IMG/VR virus record: IMGVR_UViG_3300030090_004797
Location: 1-27,751 of that record
Strand: one strand, 5' to 3'
DNA from: a virus
Length of the DNA stretch: 27,751 nucleotides
Position numbers and translations under genes: made by a program. Below, one piece after another: positions 1 through 17,009 of this stretch (the stretch's first letter is position 1; the number at the start of each line of letters is the position of its first letter). The notes beneath the pieces are model-generated. The model saw only the letters and a program-made list of their open reading frames with translations, did not search any database and was not told the DNA's origin.

Positions 1-2367
1 TAAACCTAAACTTTTTACATAGTTATTAATAGCACCATTAGGTTTTACTATAGACTCAAATATTTCTTTAAAAATTCTGTTTCTTGGATCTTGAAAAGCT
101 GCTTTTGTATATGGTTTGCCCTCTGCTTTTAACTTGTTTTTTAATCTTTGTTCTATTGCATTTACAGCCTCAACAGCTTTTGATCTTGACTCTAAAAATT
201 GTACTTCACCAACACCTGCTTTAGCTAACTCAACTGATCTTTCGCTTAGTTCACCAGTTTTTATATTTTCATTATATTCTTTTAAAAAGTTATAGGCTTG
301 TCTTGCGTTGCTAAATTCTTTTCTATATAAAAATGATTCTTCAGTAAAATAACCAGCTTTACTTAGTTTTCTTAAAACTTCTTCTATTGTGTTTTTTATT
401 TTGCTAAAAACCCCTTCGTTAAACTGTATTTCATTACCAGCTATAGCGTCTGAAAAAACTGAAAATATTTCATTTACTCCTCTTTTACTATATATATTGT
501 CGCCTGTAAGGTTGTAATCATTTTTTAATCTTTTTAATACAGCTTGTTTTTGTTTTTTATTCAAAACGTTCATAAAAGACTTACCTAGCTTAACTCTATC
601 ATTGTTATTTAAGTTGTTCAAGTGTTTAGCTAGTATTCCATGTAAAACCTCATGAGAACCAACGTTTATAGCTCCTGTTTTTGCAGCTACCTCTTTGTTT
701 ATAACTATAGTGTCACCAAATATAAACCCATCTGTGTTTCTCGTTTTTTTAGCTCTACTTTTTGATATACCTAACTTTATAGCTTGTTCCTCTGTTTTTT
801 GTGCAGTTTTAGCAACTATCACCTTTTTACCTATACGTTTACCTTGTGTTTTAGCAAATTCAATAGTACCTTTTAACATGCTTTCTCTAATAATTTTGTC
901 AGCACGTATTGCGGCTTTTGTTTTACCAATTTCAACAGCTCCTTCGTATTTGTTAATTATTTCTTGTATTTGATCGTTTACAGAGTCTAATTTTACTTTA
1001 GCACCAGATGTTTGGCTTTTTATATCATCTGATTTAACTTTTCTTTTTAAATCTCTTCTTTGTATTTCTAAATCAATTAATTTGTCTCTGTCTTTTACAT
1101 CTGTTATTCTAGCATCTATTTGAGTATTTATTATTGCTCTAGTTTGCTTTTCGTAAGCTAGTTGTTCTAAACCTGTTTGATCATTTTCCATTTTGATATT
1201 TGCTTTCGCAATATCCATACCATCTGCTGTCTCTATAAACTTTTTTATTACACTGTATTCAACAGGGTTTTTCATGTCGTTAAGATAATACTTAGCTCCT
1301 TTAAAAGTCATTAAAGCATGACCTACTGATAAGGGTGCTGTTGATAAACCAGAAAAAGCTTCAAAACCAACTTCAGCCGCATCAAACTCTTGACCAGCAG
1401 CTTCTCTACCTAAAACCTCACCTAAACCACCACCAAACGCTTCAACTGCTAAACCTCCAGCAACAGCTGTAGTTTTCTTAGCAATACCAGGCCCTCTTCT
1501 TAAAAGTCTAGTAGTAGTAGCTCCAGCACCGTACATAGTCAACGCTTCAACACCACCAATAGTAAAACCTCTACCATAAGCCCTGTTTCTTAACTCTTGA
1601 CCTCTTGGACCATTAACAAGATCCATTACGTTTTTTTCGTTAAATTCTAAGTTGTCTTCTCTTAACATTTCGCTTATCAAGTCTCCATAAGTTAAGGCAG
1701 ATTCCATAGTTGTCATTAAACCAAACATAGAGCTTGCAAAAGCTGTTTTTGGACCACCAACAAGTAATCCAGCACCACCAGATAGTAATGTTTCTCTAGC
1801 TATGTTAGCCTCTCCCTCGAAAAAAGCCCCAACTTGACTAGCCATAGAAGAAACTAAAGTTTCAGCTAATAAACCTGGGTTTTCTTTTATACCCTCGTAA
1901 AAAGCGTACCAACCTCCACCGTTTGCCTCGTATTTTTTTTGAAACTCATACATAGCTCTAGACATTTTATAATTACGCGCTTTTTCAAGGTTTGCTTCAA
2001 CGTAGTCTCTAGCTACTTGCTCATTAACCTGACCGCCAGCAAGCAAAAGATTATAAGCTTCACCAACATCAGAACTTTGTTCATACCCACGCCTTACAGC
2101 GCCAGGAAGGTCTATAACGGTATTTATAGTGTTGTTTATCCAACCTTCACCAAACCAATCAACCCTGTAATCTTGTTCATCAATAAGAAAACTTGGCGTT
2201 TCTTGTTGTTGACTACCGTATAAGCCAGTGTTTGGATCTGCAAAATCTGGTTGAGCATAAAAAGGCTGATTGTTGACAACCACAGCGTTTGGAAAGTCGT
2301 TTAAAAACTGTTCTTTCCTATCTGGGCTAACGTTATATACCTGTCCGTTTACTTCGTATTGCTCCAT
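1..2367 (-). CDS. Large virion/ejection-type protein with zincin metallopeptidase motif (3' end outside window)
   Basis: This frame is open from an ATG at 2367 to the window edge with no stop, giving 789 codons of a longer protein (start MEQYEVNGQVYNV). In order it shows: an N-terminal polar part; Gly/Ala-rich, partly hydrophobic segments at about residues 170-235 and 262-345 that could insert into a membrane; a charged, probably coiled-coil region at about 380-500; and an HEVLH motif at residues 572-576 preceded by GFIFGDTIVINKEV. HExxH with that lead-in matches the zincin peptidases found in very large phage 'polyvalent' and internal virion proteins. A third ligand cannot be assigned by eye. 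It follows the 231- and 603-residue genes with a 7-base gap, the position T7-like phages give their largest ejection protein. The leader before the ATG is A/T-rich with no Shine-Dalgarno. A tape-measure protein is the main alternative. The coding call is firm; the role is inferred. Confidence 0.72.
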   Translation of the reverse strand, partial: MEQYEVNGQVYNVSPDRKEQFLNDFPNAVVVNNQPFYAQPDFADPNTGLYGSQQQETPSFLIDEQDYRVDWFGEGWINNTINTVIDLPGAVRRGYEQSSDVGEAYNLLLAGGQVNEQVARDYVEANLEKARNYKMSRAMYEFQKKYEANGGGWYAFYEGIKENPGLLAETLVSSMASQVGAFFEGEANIARETLLSGGAGLLVGGPKTAFASSMFGLMTTMESALTYGDLISEMLREDNLEFNEKNVMDLVNGPRGQELRNRAYGRGFTIGGVEALTMYGAGATTTRLLRRGPGIAKKTTAVAGGLAVEAFGGGLGEVLGREAAGQEFDAAEVGFEAFSGLSTAPLSVGHALMTFKGAKYYLNDMKNPVEYSVIKKFIETADGMDIAKANIKMENDQTGLEQLAYEKQTRAIINTQIDARITDVKDRDKLIDLEIQRRDLKRKVKSDDIKSQTSGAKVKLDSVNDQIQEIINKYEGAVEIGKTKAAIRADKIIRESMLKGTIEFAKTQGKRIGKKVIVAKTAQKTEEQAIKLGISKSRAKKTRNTDGFIFGDTIVINKEVAAKTGAINVGSHEVLHGILAKHLNNLNNNDRVKLGKSFMNVLNKKQKQAVLKRLKNDYNLTGDNIYSKRGVNEIFSVFSDAIAGNEIQFNEGVFSKIKNTIEEVLRKLSKAGYFTEESFLYRKEFSNARQAYNFLKEYNENIKTGELSERSVELAKAGVGEVQFLESRSKAVEAVNAIEQRLKNKLKAEGKPYTKAAFQDPRNRIFKEIFESIVKPNGAINNYVKSLGL
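640..654 (-). other. HEVLH zinc-metallopeptidase motif
   Basis: These five codons read His-Glu-Val-Leu-His, in frame at residues 572-576 of the large edge protein, followed by GILAKHL. The HExxH form with flanking hydrophobics is the metal-binding and catalytic helix of zincins. The family fit is from motif and context only. Confidence 0.65.
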
Positions 2368-2374
2368 ACTGTTA

Positions 2375-4186
2375 TTATATTTTATCTAAAAATGTGTCTG
2401 ATGCTAAATATCTCCAAAGATCATCTAAATTAGCTTTACTATTTAATCTAAATGTTCTACCGTCAGAAGTTAATGTTTTACCATCAGTTGTAAACATACT
2501 AGTATCGTAAGCAGAGTTAATAGTAGCTTTAGCTTCGTCTAAAGACATTTCTCCAAGTTCGTACACTCTAACATCTGTATTACCAATAGTTTCATACATA
2601 TTAAGCTCTATAGTACTATAACGTCTTGTTCTTTCGGTGTGATATTTACCTTTTGGATACCTAACATAATCTATTATCTTATCGTTTTTAGCTATATCTT
2701 CTACCGTTACGGGCTTGTCTAAAAGTTGACCATTATTATCAACAACGGTTTGAAAGAACTGTCCACCTTGATATTTGTATGTAAAACCACTAGGTGATTG
2801 GAAAGTTTCACCGTCAGAATAATATGTCTCAGGATTTTCTATTTTATTTATAAACGTACCAAAATTAACTTCAAAATCTTGCGCATTAAACTGTTGTGCG
2901 CCAACAATATAATTTGGTATTCTTGACGTTCTGTTTCTATCATTAGCTCTTTTTCTTTTGTCTGCTTCAAAATTAAAAGCCAAAGTATATTTTTGTTGAT
3001 CATAAGTCATATAGTACTTAGCCATTAAATCTCTTGATGTTTCAAGGTTAAAAGCCGGGTTATTAACATTGACAATAGCATCAATCATATTTTTTACATT
3101 TTCTTTATATTTTTTTAGCTCATCAGGATTATTTGCAAACATTTCTGCAGCCTTTGATCCGTCTAAAGAATTTATTATTTGATTACCGTCTAAGTCTAAA
3201 GTTTTATATGTTTCACCGATGTTAACTATTTGATTGTTTTCGTTAACCATCATATTATCTAAAGCAGAAAAAGGTATACCCATCAACTCTGCGTTTTCAT
3301 AAACAGAATCTTCAAAAGAAGGTTCGTCATTTAAACCTGTTATACTTTCATAAGCAAAGTCATCAAAATCTTTTTTGTCTTTAATTAAATCTTTAAAAAA
3401 AACCTGAAATTCATTTTCGTCATAAGCAAAACTAGCATCAGGATCAGCGCCGTGCAATAAACCTCTTCTTTTACTGTTTTCTGTTCTAGTTATGTATGCT
3501 GTGGCTAAATCAGCATTTATAGGTGCAAAAGTAGAGCTAATTTCATCTAAACTTAAAGTTTTAAAATCACCATTGTCATCTAAAACATTAAAAAACACAC
3601 CATCTTTATTGTAACCTAACTGTAGTTTTCCGTTTTTAACGTTTTCGTCCATGTTTTTAGTATCAAAAGCTATAGCTGCTAAGTGAATATCTTCGTAGTT
3701 ATAAACTCTTTCGTTTGCCAAATCATTTTTAATAACATCGGACCTATCCATAAAAGTAGTTCTAGTATCTTTCAGTTTGTTTGTTAACAGTGTTAGCTCT
3801 GCTAATATTTGCCTTCTAGCTCTTCTGTTTTCTTTAGTATCGTTTTCACCAATAGTGTTTACTAAATCAAATCTGTCTGCCATATCTTGAACAGCGTTTT
3901 CAGCTAAATTAATTATAGCCTCAGGCAAAGGTTCTTCATTAACATATAAAGAACCTAGGTTTTCGTCGGCTATTGACATAAATCTAGCTTTCACTTGTTC
4001 TTTTTTCTTTTTTAAAAGATCTTTTTCTAGTTTTATCTCATTCATGATACCACCCACCATATCCATATAAGCCTTGCTAATATCAGCTGTTGATTGGTGT
4101 AGTTTAGAAGTGTCAAAGTATTCACCGCTATATCTAGTTTTTGTTTCTGCAAAAGCAGCGTTTATTAAGTTTCTATCTGATCCCAT
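2375..4186 (-). CDS. Putative internal virion/ejection protein (603 aa)
   Basis: This is a 603-residue soluble protein with no signal peptide or membrane segment. The N-terminal ~170 residues are rich in Lys, Glu and Leu and look alpha-helical, including a KKKKEQVKARF stretch. The middle is acidic (many DD, DE and ND pairs). The C-terminal ~200 residues hold aromatic, beta-leaning sequence such as SPSGFTYKYQGGQFF. I recognise no catalytic motif. It lies between a small Ala/Gln-rich protein and a very large one with a 16-base gap upstream and 7 downstream. That small-medium-large order matches gp14-gp15-gp16 of T7-like podoviruses, so an ejected internal protein is the best guess. A tail-associated structural protein is the alternative. 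Start at 4186 follows an A/T-only leader; the stop is TAA. Confidence 0.5.
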   Translation of the reverse strand: MGSDRNLINAAFAETKTRYSGEYFDTSKLHQSTADISKAYMDMVGGIMNEIKLEKDLLKKKKEQVKARFMSIADENLGSLYVNEEPLPEAIINLAENAVQDMADRFDLVNTIGENDTKENRRARRQILAELTLLTNKLKDTRTTFMDRSDVIKNDLANERVYNYEDIHLAAIAFDTKNMDENVKNGKLQLGYNKDGVFFNVLDDNGDFKTLSLDEISSTFAPINADLATAYITRTENSKRRGLLHGADPDASFAYDENEFQVFFKDLIKDKKDFDDFAYESITGLNDEPSFEDSVYENAELMGIPFSALDNMMVNENNQIVNIGETYKTLDLDGNQIINSLDGSKAAEMFANNPDELKKYKENVKNMIDAIVNVNNPAFNLETSRDLMAKYYMTYDQQKYTLAFNFEADKRKRANDRNRTSRIPNYIVGAQQFNAQDFEVNFGTFINKIENPETYYSDGETFQSPSGFTYKYQGGQFFQTVVDNNGQLLDKPVTVEDIAKNDKIIDYVRYPKGKYHTERTRRYSTIELNMYETIGNTDVRVYELGEMSLDEAKATINSAYDTSMFTTDGKTLTSDGRTFRLNSKANLDDLWRYLASDTFLDKI

Positions 4187-4202: not shown

Positions 4203-4898
4203 TTATTCCTTACCATCTCCGGAAAAAAATTCTTTTTGTACTCCTTCACCTATTTGCTTACCAATACCTGATTTTGCTAACGTACCCATGAAGTTCATAG
4301 TTGCTTGTTGAGTTGCTATTTGTGCGTTCATTTGGTTAGCCTGTGCTTGCATTACAGCTTGGTTAGCACCTGTAGCTTCACCCATTTGCATGCCTAAAAG
4401 AGTTGCTTGTCTATCAGCTTCCATTTGTTGTAAAACTTGTTCTCCTTGTCTTTCTGCTAATTGAGTCGCAGCTGCTCCTTTTGCTGCGGCTAATCTATTT
4501 GCTGATTCTTGTTTACCTATATTAGCTGAAATTTGAGCTGTCTGCAAAGCACCTTGATTAGCCATAGCTTGAGCTAGACCAGCAATACCACTTGCGCCAG
4601 CTGCTTCTCTAAAGCCTTGCATTATATTTGCTCTTTGTTGAGAACCTTGTTTAGCCATAAACTCGGCTTGCTGTGTATTAACAGTTAAGTCCTCGTATGT
4701 ATTCTCCATGTCTTTGTATGGATTAACAAATGTTTGTGCTTTATATTCTGCTTTTTGCTTATCTAATAATTTTTGTTGCTCTTTTCTTAATTCTTTAGCA
4801 TCCTCATACTGTGTCCTTGCCAAGTTTCTGTTTTTATTAGCAGTACTCATGTTCATCAAAGCGCCAATACCTGCTATTGCTATTGATCCGTAACTCAT
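4203..4898 (-). CDS. Putative small internal virion protein (gp14-like), Ala/Gln-rich
   Basis: The 231-residue product starts with a short hydrophobic stretch (SIAIAGIGALMNM), then a charged helix rich in Lys, Glu and Gln (about residues 20-55). A long Ala/Gln/Met-rich region (about 75-215) follows, with repeated GxQxxAN and QAxxNQ patterns and probably helical throughout. It has no cysteine and no enzyme motif. This composition resembles small ejection proteins of podoviruses such as T7 gp14, which form a pore in the host outer membrane. Homology cannot be shown by eye. The gene lies 4 bases after the cupin stop and 16 bases before the 603-residue gene, so all three are probably co-translated. 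The leader ends ATTATG with no Shine-Dalgarno. Confidence 0.55.
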   Translation of the reverse strand: MSYGSIAIAGIGALMNMSTANKNRNLARTQYEDAKELRKEQQKLLDKQKAEYKAQTFVNPYKDMENTYEDLTVNTQQAEFMAKQGSQQRANIMQGFREAAGASGIAGLAQAMANQGALQTAQISANIGKQESANRLAAAKGAAATQLAERQGEQVLQQMEADRQATLLGMQMGEATGANQAVMQAQANQMNAQIATQQATMNFMGTLAKSGIGKQIGEGVQKEFFSGDGKE

Positions 4899-4902
4899 AA
4901 TT

Positions 4903-5391
4903 TTAATTTTTGTTTTTATATTTTTCGTACTCTTCCCATGTAAAAACTACGTTCATTTTTTCAAGTTCTTTTAAATCTTCAGTATTAGTAGGATTTGCAT
5001 GTACAGTAACTATAACACAATCTTCTTGTGCGTACACTATTCTTTTAGCACCCTCTGGAGATATTATGTGACAAGGTGCAATAAGCTCTAAAACACCGTC
5101 TTCACTAGAAGTTTGCAAAATACCTGTTAACAAAAAAAACGCGTAGCTATGTTTGTGTATTGCTGAAAAACCTAGTTGACCTTTTTTCATAGTCATTTCT
5201 CTAACATAAATACCATTAGCAAAAGAGTGCTTGTAACCCCAAAAATCTGGATAAACCAACTCCTTGTTATTTCCAACAATATTTTTTCCGTCAGCAATAC
5301 TAACTATAAAATCTTCAATAGCTTTAATCTTTTCTCTATAAGACTTAACAGGTATATTATCAAATACTTTTTGTAACTCAAAATTAGACAT
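4903..5391 (-). CDS. Cupin-fold protein
   Basis: The 162-residue protein has a single cupin barrel. The first metal-binding motif is seen as IHKHSYAFFLLTG (H79, H81), then P106, ISPEGAKR (110-117), the strand VYAQEDCVIVTVHANP with H131, and an acidic C-terminal tail. Small cupins of this type, with 'HKH...G...P...spaGtkR...ED...vHxNp', recur beside tail and internal virion genes of marine phages. Their role is not established; metal binding, sugar binding or help in folding tail proteins are all possible. The glutamate usual between the two histidines and the next motif is not obvious, so enzymatic activity is uncertain. A 57-base A/T-rich gap without a hairpin separates it from the 864-residue gene. 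Confidence 0.75.
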   Translation of the reverse strand: MSNFELQKVFDNIPVKSYREKIKAIEDFIVSIADGKNIVGNNKELVYPDFWGYKHSFANGIYVREMTMKKGQLGFSAIHKHSYAFFLLTGILQTSSEDGVLELIAPCHIISPEGAKRIVYAQEDCVIVTVHANPTNTEDLKELEKMNVVFTWEEYEKYKNKN

Positions 5392-5448
5392 AATTTAATT
5401 ATATTATTATCTTAATATAGTTACAGTTTTTGTTGTTTTTTTACTTTT

Positions 5449-8043
5449 TTACGTTATAGATAGTATTCTATCAACGTCAAGTCTTATGTTTTGAGCAGCG
5501 TTACCAGCTCTGTTTATTTTTATGTTACCTGTTACTGTTGCTGTTTGACCAGAACCAGAAAAAGTTAATGTTATACCGTTTTCTAAAGTTTGAGCCGCAC
5601 TTAAAACTATAGTACCAGCTCCTGCTGCGCCACCACCCGAGGCAACTGTAACATTAGTTCCTGATGCTTTTTTTATACCTATACCAGAAACAGTGTCGCC
5701 ATTTGCAATACCATTTCTACTAGCCACAGGTACGTTAGTGCTGTTACCAACACTAGAGGTTGTTGTAGTTGAAACACTAGAAAGTGTAACGGCTAAATCA
5801 GTTAACTCTACCTCGTAACCAAAAACTCTTTTTATTTCATTCAAACCATAACCACCTATTTTTAAAGTTTGACCAGCTAAAGCCAATGGCTGTTGTTTAC
5901 TAAACACAACGTTACCCTCTTGAGTTGTTACCTCACCTCTTGTTATTGTAGGTTTTTTACCTAAATTATCAATAGATGGAACTTCTGTATTAACATAGGT
6001 TTCTTCTGAAAAAGTATTTTCTAAAGAAACAATAGTGTCTTGATAACTTGCTAGTACAGTGTCAGATTCTATACCTCCACCTGGAACAACTATCATGCTT
6101 TCTTCTAATAAATGTGTACTAGACACTGGCCATCTATAATTCATTTGATTACTAAAGCTAAGCGTTATACCATCTGCTATTGCAACGGCTTGAGACATAG
6201 TAAACACGTTTGTCGAGTCAAGAGAAACAACTGTTACTGTGGCAGCATCTAAGGCTGTGTTACCAGTTATTCTATCACCTACTTTCATTATAGAGGCTAC
6301 AGCAGCGTCCATTGTAACAGAGGTGCCACTAGTAACGGCTCCGTTAACTGTTCCTGAGTCAGTTACAGACGGATAAATGTTTTCACCTTCTATTTGTATT
6401 GGAGAAGCGCCAACAGTTCTAGTAACAAAAGCTACGAAATCGTTAGCGCTAGGTTGTTTTGTTATACTGTAAGACTTTGTGTTTGTTGTTACAGAAAAAT
6501 CTATAGTAAACGGTATTTTACTGTTAGGTTTAAATTGATCTACAGTTATAGTAGCATTAGTAGGTGATCCTACTTCAAGATTTCCACTAGCAGAATATGC
6601 ACTTATAGTTAAATCAAAACTTAAATATTGATATATTACTTTTTGTAACAAACTAGAATTAGAACCTTTTGAAGAGTTTAAATCTAAAGAACCATCAGCA
6701 AATCTAAACTCAACGTAGTTAGCATGCTCTGTGTTTTCTCCAGCAAACAAATAAATATCATACTGATCATCATCTGTTACTGAAGGAAATTGTATTTGTC
6801 CGGTATAGTTATTACTACTACCAATTTTTTCTTCAAGACAGTAATAAGCGGTTTGAAAAGTGTTTGTAACAAAGTTGTAATATTTAGCATCTTCGTTTTT
6901 TACTTCTAGTTTAAAATTAGCACCAGCGGTTCCTACGATGTTAAAACTTCTGTTTTCTCCAGAGGCTTTTATACTTGAAAGATCTAAGTCAAAATTGTTA
7001 ATTGTTTTAGTTTCCACCGTTGTTACATTTATGTTTTCTACAAAATCATCATTGTCCATTTCTTCATAAAAAGATATTTCTTCTTTAGCTTTAACTAGCT
7101 GTGAAATTGAAGGCGGCGCTACAGGAGGTGGTGTACCACAACCACAAGTTATATACATTTGTTGACAAAAAGCAATTTTAGCTTGTTTTAAAGATATTTG
7201 ATATGGATTTGTTATATTAGGTAGTTGTCCTTGAAATAATATTATTCTATTATAAAAAAACGTACATCCCCACTGAAGATAGTTACTCCACATGTTTGTT
7301 TGAAACGTTAAAAAATTATTATACCAAACAGACATTGGTTGGTTCGGATGTGAAGAATAAACAGGATACATTATTGAGCCAGCAAAGTTTTTAATATCTT
7401 GCTCACTACAAGTTTGAGCAGACATTTTTAATTGTGAACCTGGTGCCATTGGAATAGTTCCGCAGTTACAGTGATTATACATGTATTGAAAATAATCTCT
7501 TTTAGCTTCTTTTAATAATGTTTGAGCAGTGCTATAGGTGTTATTAATTAATTGGTTATTAAAATGATTATATCTATTTAGCAAATAATTACAAGGATTG
7601 TTATGGTTTGAATAACTATTCCAAAGATTATTCATAAAAGTAAAAAAAGTATTTTGACTTGGAGTTCCAGTTTGAAGCTTTACAACCTCTTCAAAAACTT
7701 CTATTAATCCTGTTGGTGCGCCAAAATAATTTGCTGAACTAGGTATAAGGTAAACATTTACTGCATAAACATTAGTTCCTGGAACTGAGGCACCAGCTGC
7801 TTCATAAAAATCATTTATAGAGCAAAGTAAAGATTGTTGTGCCTGTTGAGCCTGTTGCGCGTTAGGTAACATAGTACCCATTGAAGCATGTTCGGCATCA
7901 GACATAAGACTACCGTCGGGCATGTAATGAAAACCATCTGGAGCAGGAGGTCTAGTACTTTGACTTTGGTTACTTGTGTTAGAAGTTCTTTGTGAAGAGC
8001 TTCTTTGTGAAGAACCTTGATTATTATTATAGTGATAACTCAT
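5449..8043 (-). CDS. Modular virion structural protein (864 aa), possible tail/baseplate or fiber component
   Basis: This 864-residue protein is built of clearly different parts. Residues 1-35 are a Ser/Asn/Gln-rich disordered tail; 32-52 hold the motif PPAPDGFHYMPDGSLMSDAE, a segment I associate with marine phage structural proteins. Residues 131-199 and 242-308 are two divergent copies of a Cys/Trp/Tyr-rich helical unit, each ending in C-x-C-GT (CNCGT, CGCGT). Residues 345-560 are beta-rich. Residues about 563-632 and 748-829 carry a small beta module with 'VGDRITG...LSFSN' and 'NGDTVSG...LTFSG'. There are no signal peptide, membrane segment or enzyme motifs. It lies between the 122-residue and cupin genes, 10 bases after the former's stop. 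A tail-associated virion protein is inferred from modularity and position; the exact place in the particle is unknown. Confidence 0.6.
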   Translation of the reverse strand: MSYHYNNNQGSSQRSSSQRTSNTSNQSQSTRPPAPDGFHYMPDGSLMSDAEHASMGTMLPNAQQAQQAQQSLLCSINDFYEAAGASVPGTNVYAVNVYLIPSSANYFGAPTGLIEVFEEVVKLQTGTPSQNTFFTFMNNLWNSYSNHNNPCNYLLNRYNHFNNQLINNTYSTAQTLLKEAKRDYFQYMYNHCNCGTIPMAPGSQLKMSAQTCSEQDIKNFAGSIMYPVYSSHPNQPMSVWYNNFLTFQTNMWSNYLQWGCTFFYNRIILFQGQLPNITNPYQISLKQAKIAFCQQMYITCGCGTPPPVAPPSISQLVKAKEEISFYEEMDNDDFVENINVTTVETKTINNFDLDLSSIKASGENRSFNIVGTAGANFKLEVKNEDAKYYNFVTNTFQTAYYCLEEKIGSSNNYTGQIQFPSVTDDDQYDIYLFAGENTEHANYVEFRFADGSLDLNSSKGSNSSLLQKVIYQYLSFDLTISAYSASGNLEVGSPTNATITVDQFKPNSKIPFTIDFSVTTNTKSYSITKQPSANDFVAFVTRTVGASPIQIEGENIYPSVTDSGTVNGAVTSGTSVTMDAAVASIMKVGDRITGNTALDAATVTVVSLDSTNVFTMSQAVAIADGITLSFSNQMNYRWPVSSTHLLEESMIVVPGGGIESDTVLASYQDTIVSLENTFSEETYVNTEVPSIDNLGKKPTITRGEVTTQEGNVVFSKQQPLALAGQTLKIGGYGLNEIKRVFGYEVELTDLAVTLSSVSTTTTSSVGNSTNVPVASRNGIANGDTVSGIGIKKASGTNVTVASGGGAAGAGTIVLSAAQTLENGITLTFSGSGQTATVTGNIKINRAGNAAQNIRLDVDRILSIT
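7120..7653 (-). repeat. Internal duplication in the 864-aa protein ending in C-x-C-GT motifs
   Basis: Two units of about 67-69 residues (codons for residues 131-199 at 7447-7653 and 242-308 at 7120-7320) align as LWNSY / MWSNY, then a Cys, NRYNHFNNQL / NRIILFQGQL, SLLKEAKRDYF-like / SLKQAKIAFC helices, and MYNHCNCGTIP / MYITCGCGTPP. The copies are diverged at protein level, so the duplication is old. Confidence 0.65.
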
Positions 8044-8435: not shown

Positions 8436-11400
8436 TTAACTTGATCCTTGCTCGCTGTTACAAAGCGTTATATCATCATATATACCTCCTAAAACGTTAG
8501 TTGTTGCTAAATAATTGTTTATACCATATTGTAAATAAATTTGATCATTTGCGTAAGTACAATCAGGTATTGACTGTTGACAAGCACTACCAGGGTTAGA
8601 ATTAGGTATACTACAAGCTGTACATCCAGTAACCCCTGGTTGGAGGCTTTCGTAAGCTTGAACAGTAACGTAATAACAGCTTCCATCATCACACGTGGCA
8701 TTGTAATCATGATTACAAGCTGATGGATCAGTACATCCTAAAACAGCAGTAGGATCATTTAGACAACCATCTACTGTAAATTGGAACTCTAAATAACCAC
8801 CACAATTAGGGAATTCAGCAGCTATAGGTAGGTTGGTTACAGCGTCTCTTCTTCCATAATACCCACCATCTATTTCGTAATATAATTCAACAGCATATTC
8901 GGCCTTAGTCCAAGTTGTTTGCGGCCCTGATTGAGTTATTGGGTGGTATATGTTAAACTCATAGTTAGTAGAAGAGTTCTGAGCATTACCCCAAGGATGT
9001 GGATAGTGTTGTTCACTACGATTACCATATATACCGTTAAACGGAAACACTGCAATAGCTTGTGCATTACTAAGAATTGCGTTATAAACAGGATTCCAAA
9101 CTGCTGCAGAATCTCTTTTCCAAAGTCTTACTCTAACACTATCACTAGAACTTGTAAAATTAGTGTTCAACATTCTGTAACTTAAACCTAAATCAACAAC
9201 CCCGGCTGAAGAGTCTAAATCGTAACCTAATGCTAACTGAGGAGTACCAGCTGGAGCTGTGCTAGGATCCCATATATCTCCACCAGGACCAGCTACACCA
9301 GGATCAAACAAAAAGTGTTGCTCTGTGTCACTAGGGCTAGGTGTTCCAGGTAAGTAATGCATAGGACCGTTAGGCGAGCCAACGTAAATATCGCTAAAAC
9401 CTTTATAACAACAATTATCCCAACCTACAATTTGAGTGTAACCACCAGCGTTTATATTGTTTCCTAAACAATCTAATCCCGCGGCTGCGTCATAATTACA
9501 TGCTGTAGGATCAGTACATCCTTGTGTTGGCTGTGGATATACACATGAGCCGTCGTCACAAGTAGCGTTTGGATCGTAATTATTAGCAGCTGAGTCAATA
9601 CATCCATAAACACAATAATCACAACTTCCATCATCAGTATTTGCTAATGGGTCATAGTTGTTTGCAGCAGGATCTGTACATCCATAAATAGTATACGTAC
9701 AACAAGAGTCCCAACCACTCTGTTGAACATAACTAGGATCGTTAATATCATCTCCGTTACAATCTAGTCTACAATTTGCAGTAACCCCACCTAAAGTACA
9801 AAATGGCTGAGGTTGGTAAATAGAATTTGTTTGAATATTATAGTTGTCAGCAGAAACATCAGTACAACCTAAACAAGTAACATATTCACATGATCCATCA
9901 TCCGTATTTGCGCCTGAGTCGTAATTACAAGCAACAGGATCAGTACAACCTAATACAGGCAAAGGACCACCGGTTCCAATTGTTACCGTGTAAGTAAACG
10001 GTGGACAAGGATTAGGAGGTGTTGCGTTATAACCTGGTGTGTTTGTTAATTGAGTTGTAATAGTATACGTTCCAGGAGGCAAATTATCGTAAAGCGCGGA
10101 ATTACTTTGTGGCGAGTTATTCAAATAATAACCAAAAGTAGCTGACTGCGTTATACCATTACCACTTATACCAATAGCAACAACACCGTTACCTTGTAAG
10201 TAAAAATAATCAGTGTTCCAAACTACAGCAATTTGCCCGTCGTTGTTACCAGAAAAAGTTTCATCTTGACCAACGATAGTAAATGGTATACCGTTGTAAG
10301 GCTGTGATGGTCCACCTACTGGTATTGGCGTTGTAATTTCATCACAGTAAAAACAACTACCATCATCTGTACTAGCAGTCGGGTCATAGTTTTGAGCCGT
10401 TGGATCGGTACAACCATAAGTAAACACACATGAACCATCGTCTAATATACCATAAGAACCACTAAGAGGTGTGTAACTTAATGCTTCTGGAGGGAAGGTA
10501 GTAGGATTACTAGCGCTGTTATCCGTACAACCATACCAAATACAAGTACCGTCATCAGTGTTAGCTAATGGGTCAAAGTTAGATGCAGTACCTATTGTAC
10601 AACCAGTAACAGTATACATACATGAACCATCATCCGTATTAGCCGATGGGTTATAATTTACAGCGTTTGGATCCGTACAACCGTAAATAACTCCTATACA
10701 GCTTCCATCATCATTATTGTTGTAAGATTGTGGTGGGAACACAGTGGTATTAGTACAGCCATCTGGATAAGTTTGCGGATCGCAAGTACAGCCCCACCAT
10801 TCACAAGTAGCATCGTCTGTATTAGCTGATGGATAATAATTTGTAGCCGAAGGGTCTAAACATCCCATTAAAATAGGCTCACAAGAACCATCATCTACTG
10901 TAGCATTTGGATCGTAATTAAATGCGGTTGAATCTGTACAACCAGTAGTTGTAATTACTATTGGAGTAGAACTTAAAACACCTTGTCCTTGTATTGCAAA
11001 ACTAGCTTGGTCAAAATAAGAGCTACCGTCAGGGTTTACAAATATATGACCAGAATTATTAAGATTATTATTATCGTAAGTAACTTGGACTTCTTTTCCT
11101 TTTATGAAATTAAACCACTTTCCTTCTTTTTCAATAAATTCATTTATATCTCCAACTTCTTTGTTTGTTTCTATCTTATCTACATACCAACCTTTTCTTG
11201 GATCTAAATTGTAGTATTGATCATCATCTAAGTTTTGGGTAATTTTAGCATCAGAACCTTCATAGTTTATAGTTGTAAAAGACTTTACACTTCCAGGAAT
11301 CTCGTTTATAATAACACTCACCTCAGAATTTGTGAAATTGTCATAAAAAGTATTTCTACCAAACTCTACACCATTAGCGTCAAAACGTTCAACATGATGC

Positions 11401-14400
11401 AACCAAGGCTCACCATTTCTCCAAGTGTAATATTCATTAGCACAACTAACAGCAATTTCTGGAATAAAAGATTTAAAACTTACCCAGCCTTTTACGTCTT
11501 CTCTAAAAGACAACGTTTTAGGCATACCATCAACACTATTGTCAAGAGTTAGATTGTACTCATCTTTTTTATCGTCATAAGAACCTAAAACTTTACTAGA
11601 TAGCTTTAAATTATCTCTAAACCAATCTTTCATACCGTGATTAGATATAGGAGTTAAACCGTCCATAGATAATCTCATAACGGTACCTCTTACTTTATCG
11701 GTAAAATAAACTCTATATGATTCTGAAGCAAAAGATTCTGGATTTTTAGATATACCGTATTCACCAACAAAAGGTACAGCTTGACCTAAAACTCTTTCGT
11801 TAGCTGTTAACTGTGGATTTCCATCAGCGTTAAATACAGCATCTTTGTTAGCTAGTATTTTCAACACCTTATCTTCACACAAAACAACTAAATCAGTATC
11901 TCTAGTATGTATTTTTTGTATACTACCGTATATAGGGTTTATGTCTTTAGTTATTTTTTCTGCAGCTACAAATTGATTTGTTTCGTTTGTGTTGGAATTA
12001 TCATTATATATACCAGAGTATATTAAACCATATTTTCTGTGCTCTTCTTCGTAAACGTTGTCTATTGTTGACGAAGCAACAACACCATTTGTTATAAATT
12101 GTAAGTTAAAATTGTCTCTAATTCTATTCGACTCAACACCATTACCCCAAGAATAACAGTTGTGCCAGTCTAATATATTTATACTATTTTGATAAACATT
12201 ATTTTCAAAGGTTAAAATAGAGGCCGATAGAGGCGGTGGTGTGTCAACAGCATCTTCGGCTAAAGTCATTATTATTTTACTACCATTTGGTTTGTGAATT
12301 AATATTTTTGTTCCAGCAGTTATTTGAGTGTGTTGTACGCCTGTGTTTGGATCAAGACAGCCACCAGGAGTTGTACATACTGCCGGAAAAACAACTACTT
12401 GACTACCAGTTGATCCAACAGAGGCACTTGGTGTTGTGCTTATAATTTGAGGTTGTCCAAAACCACCAAAAGCAAAAATACCAAGACCAGGATCGTCGTA
12501 ATTTTCTATAGTAGATCCTACTGGAAAGTTTATTTGTCTTTCTTTGTAAGATAACTCAATAGGTATATTGTCACTTGCCTCGTAATATATATCAAGATCT
12601 GTTTGATCTTTTGGTTCTGTTTCCCATATAGCTGGGTTTGTAGGCATTACAGATTCTTCTATTTCTTCTTCTAAAAACTCTATAGTATATCCAACAGAGT
12701 CAACACCCATTTTTGTAGCATTAAAACCTTCTGCATCGTTATGATAATTAATATTAAGAACAGAGTTAGGACTTATACCGTTAAAGCTATATTGAGCAAA
12801 AACTAAAGTATCATTATTAGATATTGATAAACCCGATACATCTACGTTAGATAAATCAGTTCTATATTTTTTAAAATAAACAGTGTTACTGGTACTAGAT
12901 ATATCAGCTACTACCACAAGTCTATCGTCTGGAACTGCGGTTCCGTTAATTGATTTTAGAACCATACCTTCTGTTAACGTTCTAGTTCCGTAGTTAGAGT
13001 TACCTTGTAGTGAGCTTAACGTAACTGTGTTATTTGCAAAAGAACTAGAAGCGGTTAAAGTTAGTTCTACACCACCAGATATTGGGTCGTTATAACCACC
13101 AGGATTCCAAACAAGCTCCTTATCGAGTGTTATTCTAAATCTTCTTGTAAAGTTAAAAGGTCTAAAGTAAATTTGATTATCATAACGAATATTATTATAC
13201 GTGTACGTTAGAGTAGCACCAGTAGCCATTACCTTACCACCTACTAAATAACCTCTTTGTTGTTCCCAATTAGTGTCTTTGGAACCCTCTAATGGAGTAC
13301 CGTTGTTATCACAATATCTAGCTAAAAAAGCGTTTTCAACACCAGTTATTTCATATACTTCGCCGGTTGGATCTTCTGCAAATCTAATCTTTTGCCCCGC
13401 AACTAATCTTTTAGCAATGTTCCAAACATTACCAGAATATAGTTCATTGTTTTCTAAATCATATATTATAGGATCGTTTGTATCTTCATCGTCAACTATC
13501 CATCCATTAGATAATTCCGCATCTGTAAATCTCTGTAAACCACCAAAGTTTAAATCTAAAACAGCACCTCCAGGAGAATTTATTATTCCTACAGAGCTTG
13601 AACTACCACCCGCAGGTTTTCCATCCCAACCATCATTACTACCACCAAAACCATAAACAAAAGTGTTCTCAATATGACCAGCGTCATCTATAAACCAAAC
13701 ATCTTGAAAGTCAAAAGGAGTTGCTGGATCATGCGGATCTAAAGTAGTTACTCTTCTATTTATACCCATAATACCAGGTGCACCATTATATGAAAGGTTG
13801 TTTGCAGTGTCATATATAACTTCTCCGTGATTTCTTGATCTAATCGTATTTCTACCTCTCATAAACGCGGCGTGCGGTCTCCATTGTCTATGGCTGTTAG
13901 TTATAAAACCTCCAACACCAGCATCTTTCGCAGAGTTATCTAAAGTTTGTAAATAACCCTGACTCCCACCGTAATCTTCATTGACTATATTCGATGAACT
14001 GCTATAAGCTTGAACATGCCAATAGTTTGGTATTCCAGCTGCTGAAGCATCAGTTGGGCAATTGTCTCCCATGTCCCAAGTTTTGTCGTGAGCTTCTTTT
14101 TTAAAACTAAATATTTTTTGAGCCGCAACAATATTATAATTAACATTAATACTTGTTCCGGTGTTTACTATATTTTGTTGAAAAATATCATCATTGTATA
14201 TTTTTACAAAAAATCTTCCATCAAATTCAGGTAGGTTTTTTACTTCGTACTTATAAAAAACAATAATAGTTCCGTTGTTAAAATCATTTACGTTATTACC
14301 GGTTGGATCATTTGTAAAATTGTTTATTGTACTATCAAACGGTTTGTCTACAGATATTGTCCATTTTGTTGCAGATGACAAATCTTGATTGTTTGGAGCA

Positions 14401-17009
14401 ACAGAAGTTATTTCTAATGGAATTGTTGCTGGAACACTATTGTCGCTACTTCTAAAGCTAATATAGTACTTAACGTCTTTAGTTGCTTGAGTAACCAACG
14501 TGTGTAATTCTCTTATATTACTATTATTGTAAGCGGTATCAAACGCAAGTTCAAAAGTTTTTTGTTCTTGAGTAGGTAAAAGGTTTGAAGAGTTTATTAT
14601 GTTGTTATTAGTATTATGGTGTACTTGAGTGTTTATAGTAGTTTTGTGGGTTTTTATAAAGTCTGGCGCTTCATTTTCTATGGCTAATATTTTATATCTA
14701 GCTTCTTGCTCTACTAAATAATTTTTTTCTGCTGCTTTTTTTAATATTAAATAATCATCAATATCAAGTTTGTTTCTATCGTTAGAATTAAAAGACAACC
14801 AAATATTATCATCTTTAGCATCGTAATATCTATCCATTGCTAAATTATAATACTCTGTAGACGTTTCTTTTATATAAAACTTGAAATACTTAGCGTCAAC
14901 AGGGGTAGCTTGAGAAACTGTAGACACTAATAAAGAGTTTGCATGAACAGACTCTTTTTTAGAAACTGTTATACCAGCAGTAGTGTTTGTTATAATAGGA
15001 GTTTCTCTACCGTGTTCGTCTAAAAAAACAACGCCTAATTGATAATCTCTAAGAGATTTTATAGACTTTCTGTTTTCGCTATAAGTGTTTGACAACAACA
15101 CCCTAAACTTTGGGTTATGTTGTTGATCAGTACCTTTGTTTAATAAACTAAAATTTTGATAGTAATTACCATATACGATTCTATTTCCAACAACGTCTTG
15201 TGCTAAAGCTCTTTTAGGAACGTTGTCCCAAGATCTTAATAGTTGATTAGATGGTAAAACACCTTTTATTGTTTCCGATGTTATAAAGTATTCGTCTTTT
15301 AAATAAGCGTTTAAATCCCCAGGTACAAAATAATCTTTAGGATCTATAGTCTCCACAACGTAAATATTAGGATTATCTTCTTCTTTGTACAGTATATCAA
15401 TAGCTACAACGTCAACGTTTATTTGTTCAATTATAGTTTTCCAACCTGAAAGTTTTATTTCTTTAACCTGGTTTGTCATACCAAGATTAAAACCTCTTTT
15501 AGGATGGTAAGAAAAACTACCAGGTGAAAAAGCTACTTGTGTAAACGGTGCAAAAGTAGAATATTCACCATCTTCATATTTGTATCTGTAAGAAAATCTA
15601 GGAAATTTAAACTCAAAAAGTTTTTCTTCTTCATCTAGTAAGTCAATAACATATTGAAAAGTTTGACCTGCAACAACAGGGTTTGCATCATTGTCTGTTA
15701 CTATTTTTATCTTTACCTGTACTATTCCGTTGGCAGTATCAAAATTATTACCACTCCAATCTTCTATAGTACCTCTTATAGCCCAGTCTTGTAACGGTAC
15801 GGTTGGTAGAGCGCCTGTAATAGTTTCAGGTTTTAAAACAACTGTTTTACCTACCTCCCAACCATTTAACACAAAACTAGAATTGTTGTTACTGTCATAA
15901 GGCATAGAAACGTAAAAAGTATCTCCAACACTAATGGTAGAAAAATCATAAATACCATTTGCGGAAGAATTTCCAACGAAAGTAGATTGGTTAGCGTTAC
16001 CCGGTGAAGATATTAACATTACACCAGAGTAATTTTGATCAAAATCTCTAGTTGTAACTAAGTCCATGTTTAACTTTATTTTAGGACTTCTTTTTATAAC
16101 GGTTATTTCTTGTTTAGTAACAAATCTCTCTGATATACCAATAACATTTGGGTTGTTAGCAATTAAACCTAAAGGATTTTGAAGTTTTAAATTTACAGTT
16201 ACGGTATTTTTTAAACCAGTTTGCTCTGTACCTTGCACGCTACGTGTTATGTTTATTTTTTTAGGCTCGCTAAAACCATCAGTCCAAAATAACATATCGT
16301 CAATAATATTGATACCAGTTATTATTCTCTGCGTGTTAAACTCTAATACTTTTTCTCTTGTTTTACCAACACTCATACTTAACATAGGTTGACCAGGTAA
16401 CGCGCCGACTATATTAGCGTTTAAAAAACCACCTATATTTATACTGTTATTAGTAGCGTCTTTTGAAACTACCTCAGCTTGCCAATCGTCCCAACGTTCA
16501 CCAGTATTAACGTCTTCCCAAAACAATATTTTATCTCCAACTTCTATTTTATCAAAAGCTTCTGTTGTGCTTATAAAAACATCACCAGTAATAGGATTCA
16601 TTTGAGAACCTAAGTTAATTAAAACATAAAGTTCTTTTAGATCAACAAAAACATATTCTACTAAGTTATTTTTGTGTCTTAGTATCATATCTTTAGACTC
16701 AAAAAAGCCATTAGTGTAATTACCTGCAAAAAAGTCAGGTAAACCTTCTTCACTTATAAACCAATAAAAAGCATCGTCTTTTTCATCAGAAACAGTACCT
16801 ATGCAACTAGCATTAGCGCCAATATTAATTTGACCTACATCATATAATCTTTCATTACCTAATATATTTTGAACAGTTCCAACTTCAGAGTTCTCTGACG
16901 TGGAAACCTGTACGTTTATAGCGTGCCTGTATTCTCCGTTAGGTACTAGCCTTTCATCAACGTCTTTATTCATTTTACCACCGGCAAAATGGTGTTTAAT
17001 ATCTGGCAT
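8436..17009 (-). CDS. Giant tail protein (2857 aa): nozzle-like N-terminal part fused to adhesin-type Cys-rich repeats
   Basis: The largest gene here (8.6 kb). It starts MPDIKHHFAGGKMNKDVDER, followed by LVPNGEYRHAINVQVSTSE and a VQNILGNE stretch, a lead I associate with tail/nozzle proteins of marine phages. About residues 1-2000 are beta-rich; near 1755-1790 is ESFASESYRVYFTDK followed by RGTVMRLSMDGLTPIS, a blade-like segment typical of this family. A Gly/Ser-rich region lies near 975-1170 and a beta module near 1310-1408. From residue 2023 to 2778 run 13 GCTDP...DDGSC-type repeats, interrupted by a SprB-like segment and by a ~220-residue domain of unknown type. A further Cys-rich tail closes the protein. 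There is no signal peptide. It probably binds the host surface; the repeats are known from Bacteroidetes surface proteins. The cysteines may form disulfides after release from the cell. It lies 3 bases after the 451-residue gene. Confidence 0.78.
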   Translation of the reverse strand: MPDIKHHFAGGKMNKDVDERLVPNGEYRHAINVQVSTSENSEVGTVQNILGNERLYDVGQINIGANASCIGTVSDEKDDAFYWFISEEGLPDFFAGNYTNGFFESKDMILRHKNNLVEYVFVDLKELYVLINLGSQMNPITGDVFISTTEAFDKIEVGDKILFWEDVNTGERWDDWQAEVVSKDATNNSINIGGFLNANIVGALPGQPMLSMSVGKTREKVLEFNTQRIITGINIIDDMLFWTDGFSEPKKINITRSVQGTEQTGLKNTVTVNLKLQNPLGLIANNPNVIGISERFVTKQEITVIKRSPKIKLNMDLVTTRDFDQNYSGVMLISSPGNANQSTFVGNSSANGIYDFSTISVGDTFYVSMPYDSNNNSSFVLNGWEVGKTVVLKPETITGALPTVPLQDWAIRGTIEDWSGNNFDTANGIVQVKIKIVTDNDANPVVAGQTFQYVIDLLDEEEKLFEFKFPRFSYRYKYEDGEYSTFAPFTQVAFSPGSFSYHPKRGFNLGMTNQVKEIKLSGWKTIIEQINVDVVAIDILYKEEDNPNIYVVETIDPKDYFVPGDLNAYLKDEYFITSETIKGVLPSNQLLRSWDNVPKRALAQDVVGNRIVYGNYYQNFSLLNKGTDQQHNPKFRVLLSNTYSENRKSIKSLRDYQLGVVFLDEHGRETPIITNTTAGITVSKKESVHANSLLVSTVSQATPVDAKYFKFYIKETSTEYYNLAMDRYYDAKDDNIWLSFNSNDRNKLDIDDYLILKKAAEKNYLVEQEARYKILAIENEAPDFIKTHKTTINTQVHHNTNNNIINSSNLLPTQEQKTFELAFDTAYNNSNIRELHTLVTQATKDVKYYISFRSSDNSVPATIPLEITSVAPNNQDLSSATKWTISVDKPFDSTINNFTNDPTGNNVNDFNNGTIIVFYKYEVKNLPEFDGRFFVKIYNDDIFQQNIVNTGTSINVNYNIVAAQKIFSFKKEAHDKTWDMGDNCPTDASAAGIPNYWHVQAYSSSSNIVNEDYGGSQGYLQTLDNSAKDAGVGGFITNSHRQWRPHAAFMRGRNTIRSRNHGEVIYDTANNLSYNGAPGIMGINRRVTTLDPHDPATPFDFQDVWFIDDAGHIENTFVYGFGGSNDGWDGKPAGGSSSSVGIINSPGGAVLDLNFGGLQRFTDAELSNGWIVDDEDTNDPIIYDLENNELYSGNVWNIAKRLVAGQKIRFAEDPTGEVYEITGVENAFLARYCDNNGTPLEGSKDTNWEQQRGYLVGGKVMATGATLTYTYNNIRYDNQIYFRPFNFTRRFRITLDKELVWNPGGYNDPISGGVELTLTASSSFANNTVTLSSLQGNSNYGTRTLTEGMVLKSINGTAVPDDRLVVVADISSTSNTVYFKKYRTDLSNVDVSGLSISNNDTLVFAQYSFNGISPNSVLNINYHNDAEGFNATKMGVDSVGYTIEFLEEEIEESVMPTNPAIWETEPKDQTDLDIYYEASDNIPIELSYKERQINFPVGSTIENYDDPGLGIFAFGGFGQPQIISTTPSASVGSTGSQVVVFPAVCTTPGGCLDPNTGVQHTQITAGTKILIHKPNGSKIIMTLAEDAVDTPPPLSASILTFENNVYQNSINILDWHNCYSWGNGVESNRIRDNFNLQFITNGVVASSTIDNVYEEEHRKYGLIYSGIYNDNSNTNETNQFVAAEKITKDINPIYGSIQKIHTRDTDLVVLCEDKVLKILANKDAVFNADGNPQLTANERVLGQAVPFVGEYGISKNPESFASESYRVYFTDKVRGTVMRLSMDGLTPISNHGMKDWFRDNLKLSSKVLGSYDDKKDEYNLTLDNSVDGMPKTLSFREDVKGWVSFKSFIPEIAVSCANEYYTWRNGEPWLHHVERFDANGVEFGRNTFYDNFTNSEVSVIINEIPGSVKSFTTINYEGSDAKITQNLDDDQYYNLDPRKGWYVDKIETNKEVGDINEFIEKEGKWFNFIKGKEVQVTYDNNNLNNSGHIFVNPDGSSYFDQASFAIQGQGVLSSTPIVITTTGCTDSTAFNYDPNATVDDGSCEPILMGCLDPSATNYYPSANTDDATCEWWGCTCDPQTYPDGCTNTTVFPPQSYNNNDDGSCIGVIYGCTDPNAVNYNPSANTDDGSCMYTVTGCTIGTASNFDPLANTDDGTCIWYGCTDNSASNPTTFPPEALSYTPLSGSYGILDDGSCVFTYGCTDPTAQNYDPTASTDDGSCFYCDEITTPIPVGGPSQPYNGIPFTIVGQDETFSGNNDGQIAVVWNTDYFYLQGNGVVAIGISGNGITQSATFGYYLNNSPQSNSALYDNLPPGTYTITTQLTNTPGYNATPPNPCPPFTYTVTIGTGGPLPVLGCTDPVACNYDSGANTDDGSCEYVTCLGCTDVSADNYNIQTNSIYQPQPFCTLGGVTANCRLDCNGDDINDPSYVQQSGWDSCCTYTIYGCTDPAANNYDPLANTDDGSCDYCVYGCIDSAANNYDPNATCDDGSCVYPQPTQGCTDPTACNYDAAAGLDCLGNNINAGGYTQIVGWDNCCYKGFSDIYVGSPNGPMHYLPGTPSPSDTEQHFLFDPGVAGPGGDIWDPSTAPAGTPQLALGYDLDSSAGVVDLGLSYRMLNTNFTSSSDSVRVRLWKRDSAAVWNPVYNAILSNAQAIAVFPFNGIYGNRSEQHYPHPWGNAQNSSTNYEFNIYHPITQSGPQTTWTKAEYAVELYYEIDGGYYGRRDAVTNLPIAAEFPNCGGYLEFQFTVDGCLNDPTAVLGCTDPSACNHDYNATCDDGSCYYVTVQAYESLQPGVTGCTACSIPNSNPGSACQQSIPDCTYANDQIYLQYGINNYLATTNVLGGIYDDITLCNSEQGSS
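8739..9407 (-). other. Unassigned ~220-residue domain inserted between repeat units 12 and 13
   Basis: This in-frame segment of the giant tail protein has no GCTDP motif until the next unit. It is rich in Tyr, Trp, Pro and Gly with alternating beta-strand patterns (VDLGLSYRMLN, SVRVRLWKRD, YAVELYYEIDGGYYG, YLEFQFTVDGC). It looks like a single beta-sandwich, a fold often used for ligand binding, but I do not recognise the family. Confidence 0.55.
9951..10352 (-). other. SprB-like/Ig-like beta domain inserted between repeat units 7 and 8
   Basis: This segment of the giant tail protein contains FSGNNDGQIAVVW, then GYYLNNSPQ, then LPPGTYTITTQL, and ends PFTYTVTIG. That order (NNDGxI..., a short YxLN strand, ...LxPGTYTxT...) is the pattern of SprB-type repeats in gliding-motility adhesins of flavobacteria. 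It could also be described as a generic PKD/Ig-like domain. Confidence 0.6.

Follow-up and report, generated by a model that had tools for sequence, protein, structure and literature searches.

According to the available text of Iyer et al. (2017; PMC5512222), no domain occurs more often in the polyvalent proteins of phages and plasmids than the zincin. What these domains cut may be the proteins that carry them, before packaging or after injection, or proteins of the host. Self-processing by such domains was proposed in that 2017 work, the clue being the DdrB protein of phage P1, which is processed before packaging.

Here we describe a giant protein of a marine phage with a domain of this kind, encoded at the edge of a 27,751-nucleotide stretch of virus DNA (positions 1 to 27,751 of IMG/VR record IMGVR_UViG_3300030090_004797), the whole of which we call the window. 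With the polyvalent-protein MPTases, as the accessible text of PMC5512222 presents them, the domain shares an HExxH helix, a Glu on the next helix and a small sheet. Like them, it lies inside a giant phage protein whose enzymatic modules can be exchanged; self-processing was proposed for them in the same source. The present clade differs in having no Pfam match and in its own marks, an invariant E-x-x-T-x-x-S-D and the residue N557. It is a new clade of a known theme, that of zincins in 'polyvalent' injected proteins.

The vRNAP of phage N4 and its like are, in the available portions of PMC12633501 and PMC5512222, also giant ejected podovirus proteins, of about 3500 residues and with a C-terminal HExxH domain. 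There, however, the zincin is preceded by an RNA polymerase, a module not recognised here, and the N4 protein is packaged uncut. In giant phages, according to the accessible text of PMC5694885, proteins of the head and ejected proteins are processed at a short S/A-X-E motif by prohead proteases (phiKZ gp175, SPN3US gp245); these are separate, T4 gp21-related enzymes acting in trans, whereas in the present case the zincin sits inside the chain that would be processed. Elemovirus gp18 (NC_055854, 3694 aa) has the same gene position and a matching zincin (HEIFH), but it is longer and contains FS[KR][ST], the motif with which much of this work deals, only once (0.2 expected). Finally, lethal-factor and PPEP-type zincins give the best structural matches to the predicted domain, but they are secreted proteins, and the matches have 7–15% identity and Z below 8.

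No site motif is named in the available text of PMC5512222, and the literature that we searched held nothing closer. As far as these sources show, the candidate cleavage motif is new, whereas zincins in polyvalent proteins are an already known theme.

The Giant Protein and Its Gene Neighbourhood

The frame at 1–2367 on the minus strand is open over 789 residues, with an ATG start at 2367; the first base of the record, a virus contig of 46,883 bases, cuts the gene. Its features, and the two genes upstream of it, are as follows.

1..2367 (−): start (789 residues) of the giant ejection-type protein, which is cut off by the contig end (open frame, relatives, phrog_32588 match)
943..2367 (−): N-terminal region, residues 1–475, with Gly/Ala-rich hydrophobic segments; sole known family phrog_32588 (translation, family searches)
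247..942 (−): zincin peptidase domain, residues 476–707 (AlphaFold model; top VIA rows are zincins)
697..699 (−): N557, on the strand preceding the HExxH helix; invariant
640..654 (−): HEVLH, residues 572–576, two predicted zinc-ligand His and the general-base Glu; H, E and H invariant
469..471 (−): E633, invariant; predicted to be the third ligand of the zinc and located in the model's second conserved helix
448..450 (−): D640, in the conserved E-x-x-T-x-x-S-D helix; invariant
1..246 (−): linker after the zincin, residues 708–789, reading LESRSK near residue 728 where one relative (L036) reads FSRSK
2375..4186 (−): probable internal or ejection protein of 603 aa, its gene upstream of the giant one (order kept in relatives; phi18:3 gp121, in the same place, is structural by MS/MS annotation)
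4203..4898 (−): 231-aa Ala/Gln-rich protein, probable internal or ejection protein (translation; phi18:3 gp120, in the same place, is structural by MS/MS annotation)

The original prediction had placed an HEVLH motif in a protein at the edge, 789 residues long or longer, with hydrophobic Gly/Ala segments. Both elements are seen in the translation, the motif at residues 572–576 (window 654..640, minus strand) and a Gly/Ala-rich stretch at about residues 190–360. The only family matched, phrog_32588 (unknown function), covers residues 82–480 (E 4e-26), and the zincin is the sole recognised enzymatic domain of the fragment. Complete relatives are 1871–3620 aa long. A search with the C-terminal block of the relatives did not find the remainder of the giant gene elsewhere in the 46,883-base record, nor does the edge of the gene overlap with the record's last 8 kb.

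The genes are ordered terminase, portal, probable scaffold, capsid, tail proteins, 231-aa protein, 603-aa protein and giant gene. Because tblastn against phage records gave only very weak rows for the giant protein, cultured relatives were sought through the portal protein, whose nearest records are one spring-water genome and phages of Maribacter, Flavobacterium (elemo), Cellulophaga and Tenacibaculum. In five of the six records inspected the giant gene is the last of the block (3859, 1829, 3694, 1691 and 1935 aa); in the sixth, Tenacibaculum phage Gundel_1, it was not placed. At the giant-gene position, gp123 of phi18:3 is annotated as a virion protein by MS/MS, and elemo gp18, annotated 'structural protein', has an HEIFH domain that matches our zincin profile (E 2e-7). 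The spring-water giant protein (MW202828 P0017, 3859 aa) occupies the same gene position and carries two HEFGH motifs, at residues 1615 and 2500, with no match to the present zincin profile; the giant proteins of the Maribacter phage, phi38:1 and phi18:3 have no HExxH.

The window protein is the cut-off start of the giant (~1900–3600 aa) last structural-block protein of Flavobacteriia-type podoviruses. The ejection-protein context first proposed from the fragment is supported by the gene order and by the virion annotation of same-position proteins in the cultured relatives. Taken with the zincin of elemo gp18, these data indicate, by analogy, that the giant protein is very likely packaged and that in the window phage, too, it is probably both packaged and ejected.

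Some further observations concern the neighbourhood and the relatives. Phage-encoded GroES and GroEL genes lie near the terminase, outside the window on its own contig (L265, at 191–916 and 5288–6859), and both genes also occur in elemo and in the spring-water phage. Another window protein, of 2857 aa (8436..17009, minus strand), has in its last third an array of tandem Cys-rich repeats of the GCTDPxAxNYDPxAxxDDGSC type, and its residues 1885–1970 show a weak similarity, under the Pfam cut-off (E 7.8e-4), to the C-terminal domain of the crassvirus muzzle. Among six full-length relatives scanned with Pfam, four showed no domain at all, and no family covered the C-terminal block. This block, some 500 residues long, turns up very often in marine viral contigs, with 582 and 475 relatives in ~600 examined stretches. 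Extra domains were seen in the giant protein of L159, which starts with a lysozyme-type Glyco_hydro_108 domain (residues 17–132), and in that of L099, where residues 1639–1816, between two FSK sites, hold a HAD-like motif followed by an AAA_33/Zeta_toxin kinase domain, resembling a polynucleotide kinase/phosphatase module. A HAD-like motif is present in 100 of 171 non-redundant giant proteins.

A Conserved Zincin Domain

HEVLH is the only HExxH among the 14 window proteins, where composition would predict 0.0017 occurrences in the giant protein and 0.09 over all 14. Relatives were gathered in three ways, with the window protein alone, with a three-sequence alignment and with an alignment of the domain. 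All 11 first homologues that reach the domain have HExxH (one more, L013, ends before it), as do all 80 rows kept from the domain-alignment search (the best 80 of 137 relatives). Across the 78 distinct domains left after removal of 13 duplicates, H572, E573, H576, E633, D640, N557 and F694 are invariant (78/78). This conservation, from the first homologues (11/11, plus the window protein) to the wider sets (80/80 and 78/78), rules out a chance occurrence of HEVLH, and no close homologue among the 11 or the 78 had lost the motif.

Of the two search patterns, one included HE[LV]LHG, a potential bias toward the motif. Nineteen of the 78 domains do not match the HELLHG-type pattern, yet have HExxH, so that these 19 cannot owe their selection to it. 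When the C-terminal block alone served as the query (best 80 relatives per scan), 79 new loci emerged, 72 of them with a complete ORF, and 67 of these 72 have an upstream HExxH.

The AlphaFold model of the domain, built from 78 sequences (mean pLDDT 86.7, pTM 0.81), supersedes a first model from 12 sequences (pLDDT 66). Its elements follow the order helix, strand, helices, two strands, HExxH helix, insert and E633 helix, which corresponds to the core given for polyvalent-protein zincins in the accessible text of PMC5512222. The model places both histidines on one helix and E633, the predicted third ligand, on a later one (model residues 153–168). The top 32 VIA rows (Z 4.6–6.1) are lethal-factor and edema-factor complexes, Certhrax and PPEP/Zmp1, some of which we take to be non-catalytic domains of the same fold; the next row has 3.7, and then comes ArdC with 3.6. 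The element order and these 32 rows agree on a zincin core for the predicted structure. The best structural matches were 4wf6 (Z 5.9, rmsd 4.9, 162 residues aligned) and PPEP-3 9g5j (Z 5.3, rmsd 4.4, 142 aligned); all Z values being below 8, they support the fold class and no closer kinship. Foldseek gave no match in the PDB at E 0.001, only unrelated proteins at E >1, and among predicted viral structures the best row was a protein of an uncultured virus (E 1.1e-4), with an elemo structural protein sixth.

Neither the window protein nor its zincin could be assigned to a usable family by sequence searches against Pfam, NCBIfam and the PDB, and the PDB search gave no convincing match for the zincin; LuxT_C and other weak Pfam rows were dropped as scattered chance rows. 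Searched with 12 members, Pfam gave only scattered one- or two-member rows (E up to 10) and no match to a model of a known MPTase clade. No Pfam model recognises the present clade, and we do not claim that it belongs to a described MPTase clade. A scan of bacterial and archaeal genomes gave 80 pattern matches, with no relative among them.

HEVLH is thus almost certainly part of a genuine zincin domain. The suspicion of a metallopeptidase is strengthened by the conserved third ligand and by the zincin fold, and the domain is, with good probability, an active gluzincin-type peptidase (HExxH plus E633), the conserved residues suggesting that it would bind zinc. A folded but inactive domain with a structural or binding role seems highly improbable, because all the ligands and the general base are invariant in the 78 distinct domains of the clade, even if inactive zincin-like domains exist (the N-terminal domain of lethal factor is among the best matches) and some relatives have an HHDxxH or a decayed site.

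Ejection proteins often carry wall enzymes, and the L159 relative has its Glyco_hydro_108 domain. A peptidase cutting the peptide crosslinks of the host wall during ejection, one of the targets that had been suggested, is nevertheless a role to which we give next to no chance. The fold neighbours are protein endopeptidases (lethal-factor type, PPEP) and not wall peptidases, the wall enzyme of L159 is a separate domain, and nothing else points to the crosslinks.

A Short Motif Downstream of the Zincin

The sequence 'KFSKS' was first spotted by eye at the starts of unrelated stretches in aligned giant proteins, and was counted afterwards. Eight near-identical proteins out of 80 were dropped, and then three with too little post-zincin sequence, leaving 69. 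In these, FSKS ranked first of 2167 4-mers downstream of the zincin when distinct flanking contexts were counted (28 versus 2.1 expected), followed by KFSK, FSKT and FSRS. In 72 proteins, the pattern FS[KR][ST] occurred 111 times after the zincin against 5.8 expected, and 9 times before or inside it against 2.0; in 289 neighbouring ORFs (126,903 residues) it was found 8 times against 5.9. Enrichment depended on the individual positions. It was 9.9-fold for FS[KR][ST], but 4.3-fold with YS, 2.4-fold with LS, 1.1-fold with IS and 0.8-fold with FT at the start, and variation of the third residue gave 1.6-fold for FS[NQ][ST] and 1.3-fold for FS[ED][ST].

Since the motif had been seen before it was tested, the pattern was then fixed and counted again in 61 further non-redundant proteins, which a more divergent search had supplied. 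FS[KR][ST] was found 33 times versus 7.25 expected. In this divergent set FSKS was not among the leading 4-mers, and KFSK was fifth of 3327. An enumeration of 3-mers from small, unclustered counts was dropped, as it favoured rare residues; of the clustered 3-mers none stood out strongly (FSK, 45 versus 34.3 expected). The window protein, which ends at residue 789, contains no intact FS[KR][ST], so for the window phage the cleavage-site claim rests on the relatives.

The motif lies at module borders. Starts and ends of blast homology blocks fell within 10 residues of inner motifs in 370 of 2232 and 303 of 2004 cases, versus 77.6 and 66.3 expected (64 proteins, 66 inner motifs, C-terminal block junction excluded). 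With circular shifts as the null, 0 of 500 shifts reached the observed value. The flanks of the motif are slightly richer in disorder-promoting residues (0.142 versus 0.102, P 1.5e-5). With a looser pattern, the gaps between successive sites peak at 150–250 and 350–450 residues, and 53 of 138 gaps lie within 340–460 residues (null 20.5). The HAD/kinase region of L099 (1639–1816) is flanked by sites at 1627 and 2003; more generally, 31 of 100 HAD-like motifs have an [FY]S[KR] in the 30 residues before them, versus 5.4% of random positions.

This placement bears on the idea that the zincin is an effector, cutting a host protein (of defence, transcription or the envelope) after ejection, with the FSK motif unrelated to it. 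Such a role is listed as an option for these domains in the available text of PMC5512222, and secreted endopeptidases acting on foreign proteins are among the fold neighbours. We deem it unlikely, as it leaves unexplained both the presence of the motif at module borders and its scarcity in proteins without HExxH, described below.

Motif and Active Site

Five of the 72 complete proteins found through the C-terminal block have no HExxH. They keep the zincin domain, with HHDxxH instead, and retain the third-ligand Glu and the SD. In all five the inner FS[KR][ST] is absent, and the junction reads FSE (two proteins) or has lost FS (three); three of the five are 94–96% identical. The HHDxxH sites, at residue 1029 in L102, 939 in L133 and 867 in L134, L137 and L161, represent a natural active-site variant. 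Scanning for more HHDxxH relatives gave these five contigs again, plus one weak partial match.

We then considered a combined set, reduced from 215 to 171 proteins by leaving out incomplete ones, those whose C-terminal block starts before residue 300, and near-duplicates. Inner FS[KR][ST] sites numbered 129 versus 13.0 expected in proteins with HExxH (79 of 160 proteins), and 1 versus 0.86 in those without (1 of 11). The association gives a Fisher P of 0.011 for the 171 proteins, only 11 of which are without HExxH. For the junction site there was no association with HExxH (97/160 versus 4/11, P 0.13). On a tree of the C-terminal block (168 rows, three of the 171 proteins falling outside), HExxH changed at least nine times. 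After correction for kinship, 4.2 of 8 independent pairs linked inner sites to HExxH and 0.3 pointed the other way (median P 0.125), while junction sites showed nothing (1.9 versus 2.1 pairs). The idea that loss of the junction site strictly tracks loss of the active site found no support in the junction statistics and the divergent set. As a whole, the link between the inner motif and an intact active site is suggestive: lineages with an HHDxxH or a decayed active site appear to tend to be without the motif.

The motif may be real and yet not belong to the zincin. Another protease, encoded by phage or host, may cut there, or the motif may serve as a linker or packaging tag that travels with exchanged modules. 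Four proteins without HExxH (L196, L201, L204 and L212) keep FSK or YSK sites, and in three of these the domain survives only as a weak match to its C-terminal part; proteins without HExxH also show an excess of the looser [KRQ]FS[KR] (6 versus 1.4). Trans-acting prohead proteases of giant phages, moreover, cut ejected proteins at short motifs, as the accessible text of PMC5694885 reports. The inner FS[KR][ST], however, is at background in the 11 proteins without HExxH, and no protease family was recognised in the other window proteins (P0004 and others by Pfam, some by PHROGs only) or in ten ORFs of the record's remainder. On balance, we consider such a separate agent or tag rather unlikely.

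A Possible Self-Processing Polyprotein

A built-in zincin, combined with a recurrent, position-specific sequence at the borders of downstream modules, makes self-cutting the best reading of these data. As a judgement, we put the probability that the zincin cuts its own chain at FS[KR][ST] at roughly 0.55. Points against it are the N4 vRNAP, which is packaged uncut in spite of having such a domain, and the sites kept by four proteins without HExxH. The giant multi-module protein would be packaged into virions and then, together with the DNA, be ejected into the host. Residues 476–707 would act as a gluzincin-type zinc peptidase, of the kind found in polyvalent injected proteins, and would cut the polypeptide to which they belong between modules, at downstream F-S-[K/R]-[S/T] sites. 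Such cuts, made either during head assembly or after ejection, would set free the interchangeable middle modules and a C-terminal core some 700 residues long. Of the targets envisaged in the original prediction, then, processing of a virion or ejected protein, specifically the zincin's own chain, has the best evidence.

In a broader and more tentative formulation, whose chances we would put a little short of even, these phages eject a self-dismantling polyprotein, in which this clade of zincins reads a four-residue code flanking swappable effector modules. Modules could then be exchanged between phages, because each would bring its own cutting sites.

The presence of a candidate motif at module borders makes the question of the zincin target simply testable, and the HHDxxH relatives offer natural comparison proteins. 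If self-cutting at the motif is true, the pieces released from many giant phage proteins would be predictable from sequence.
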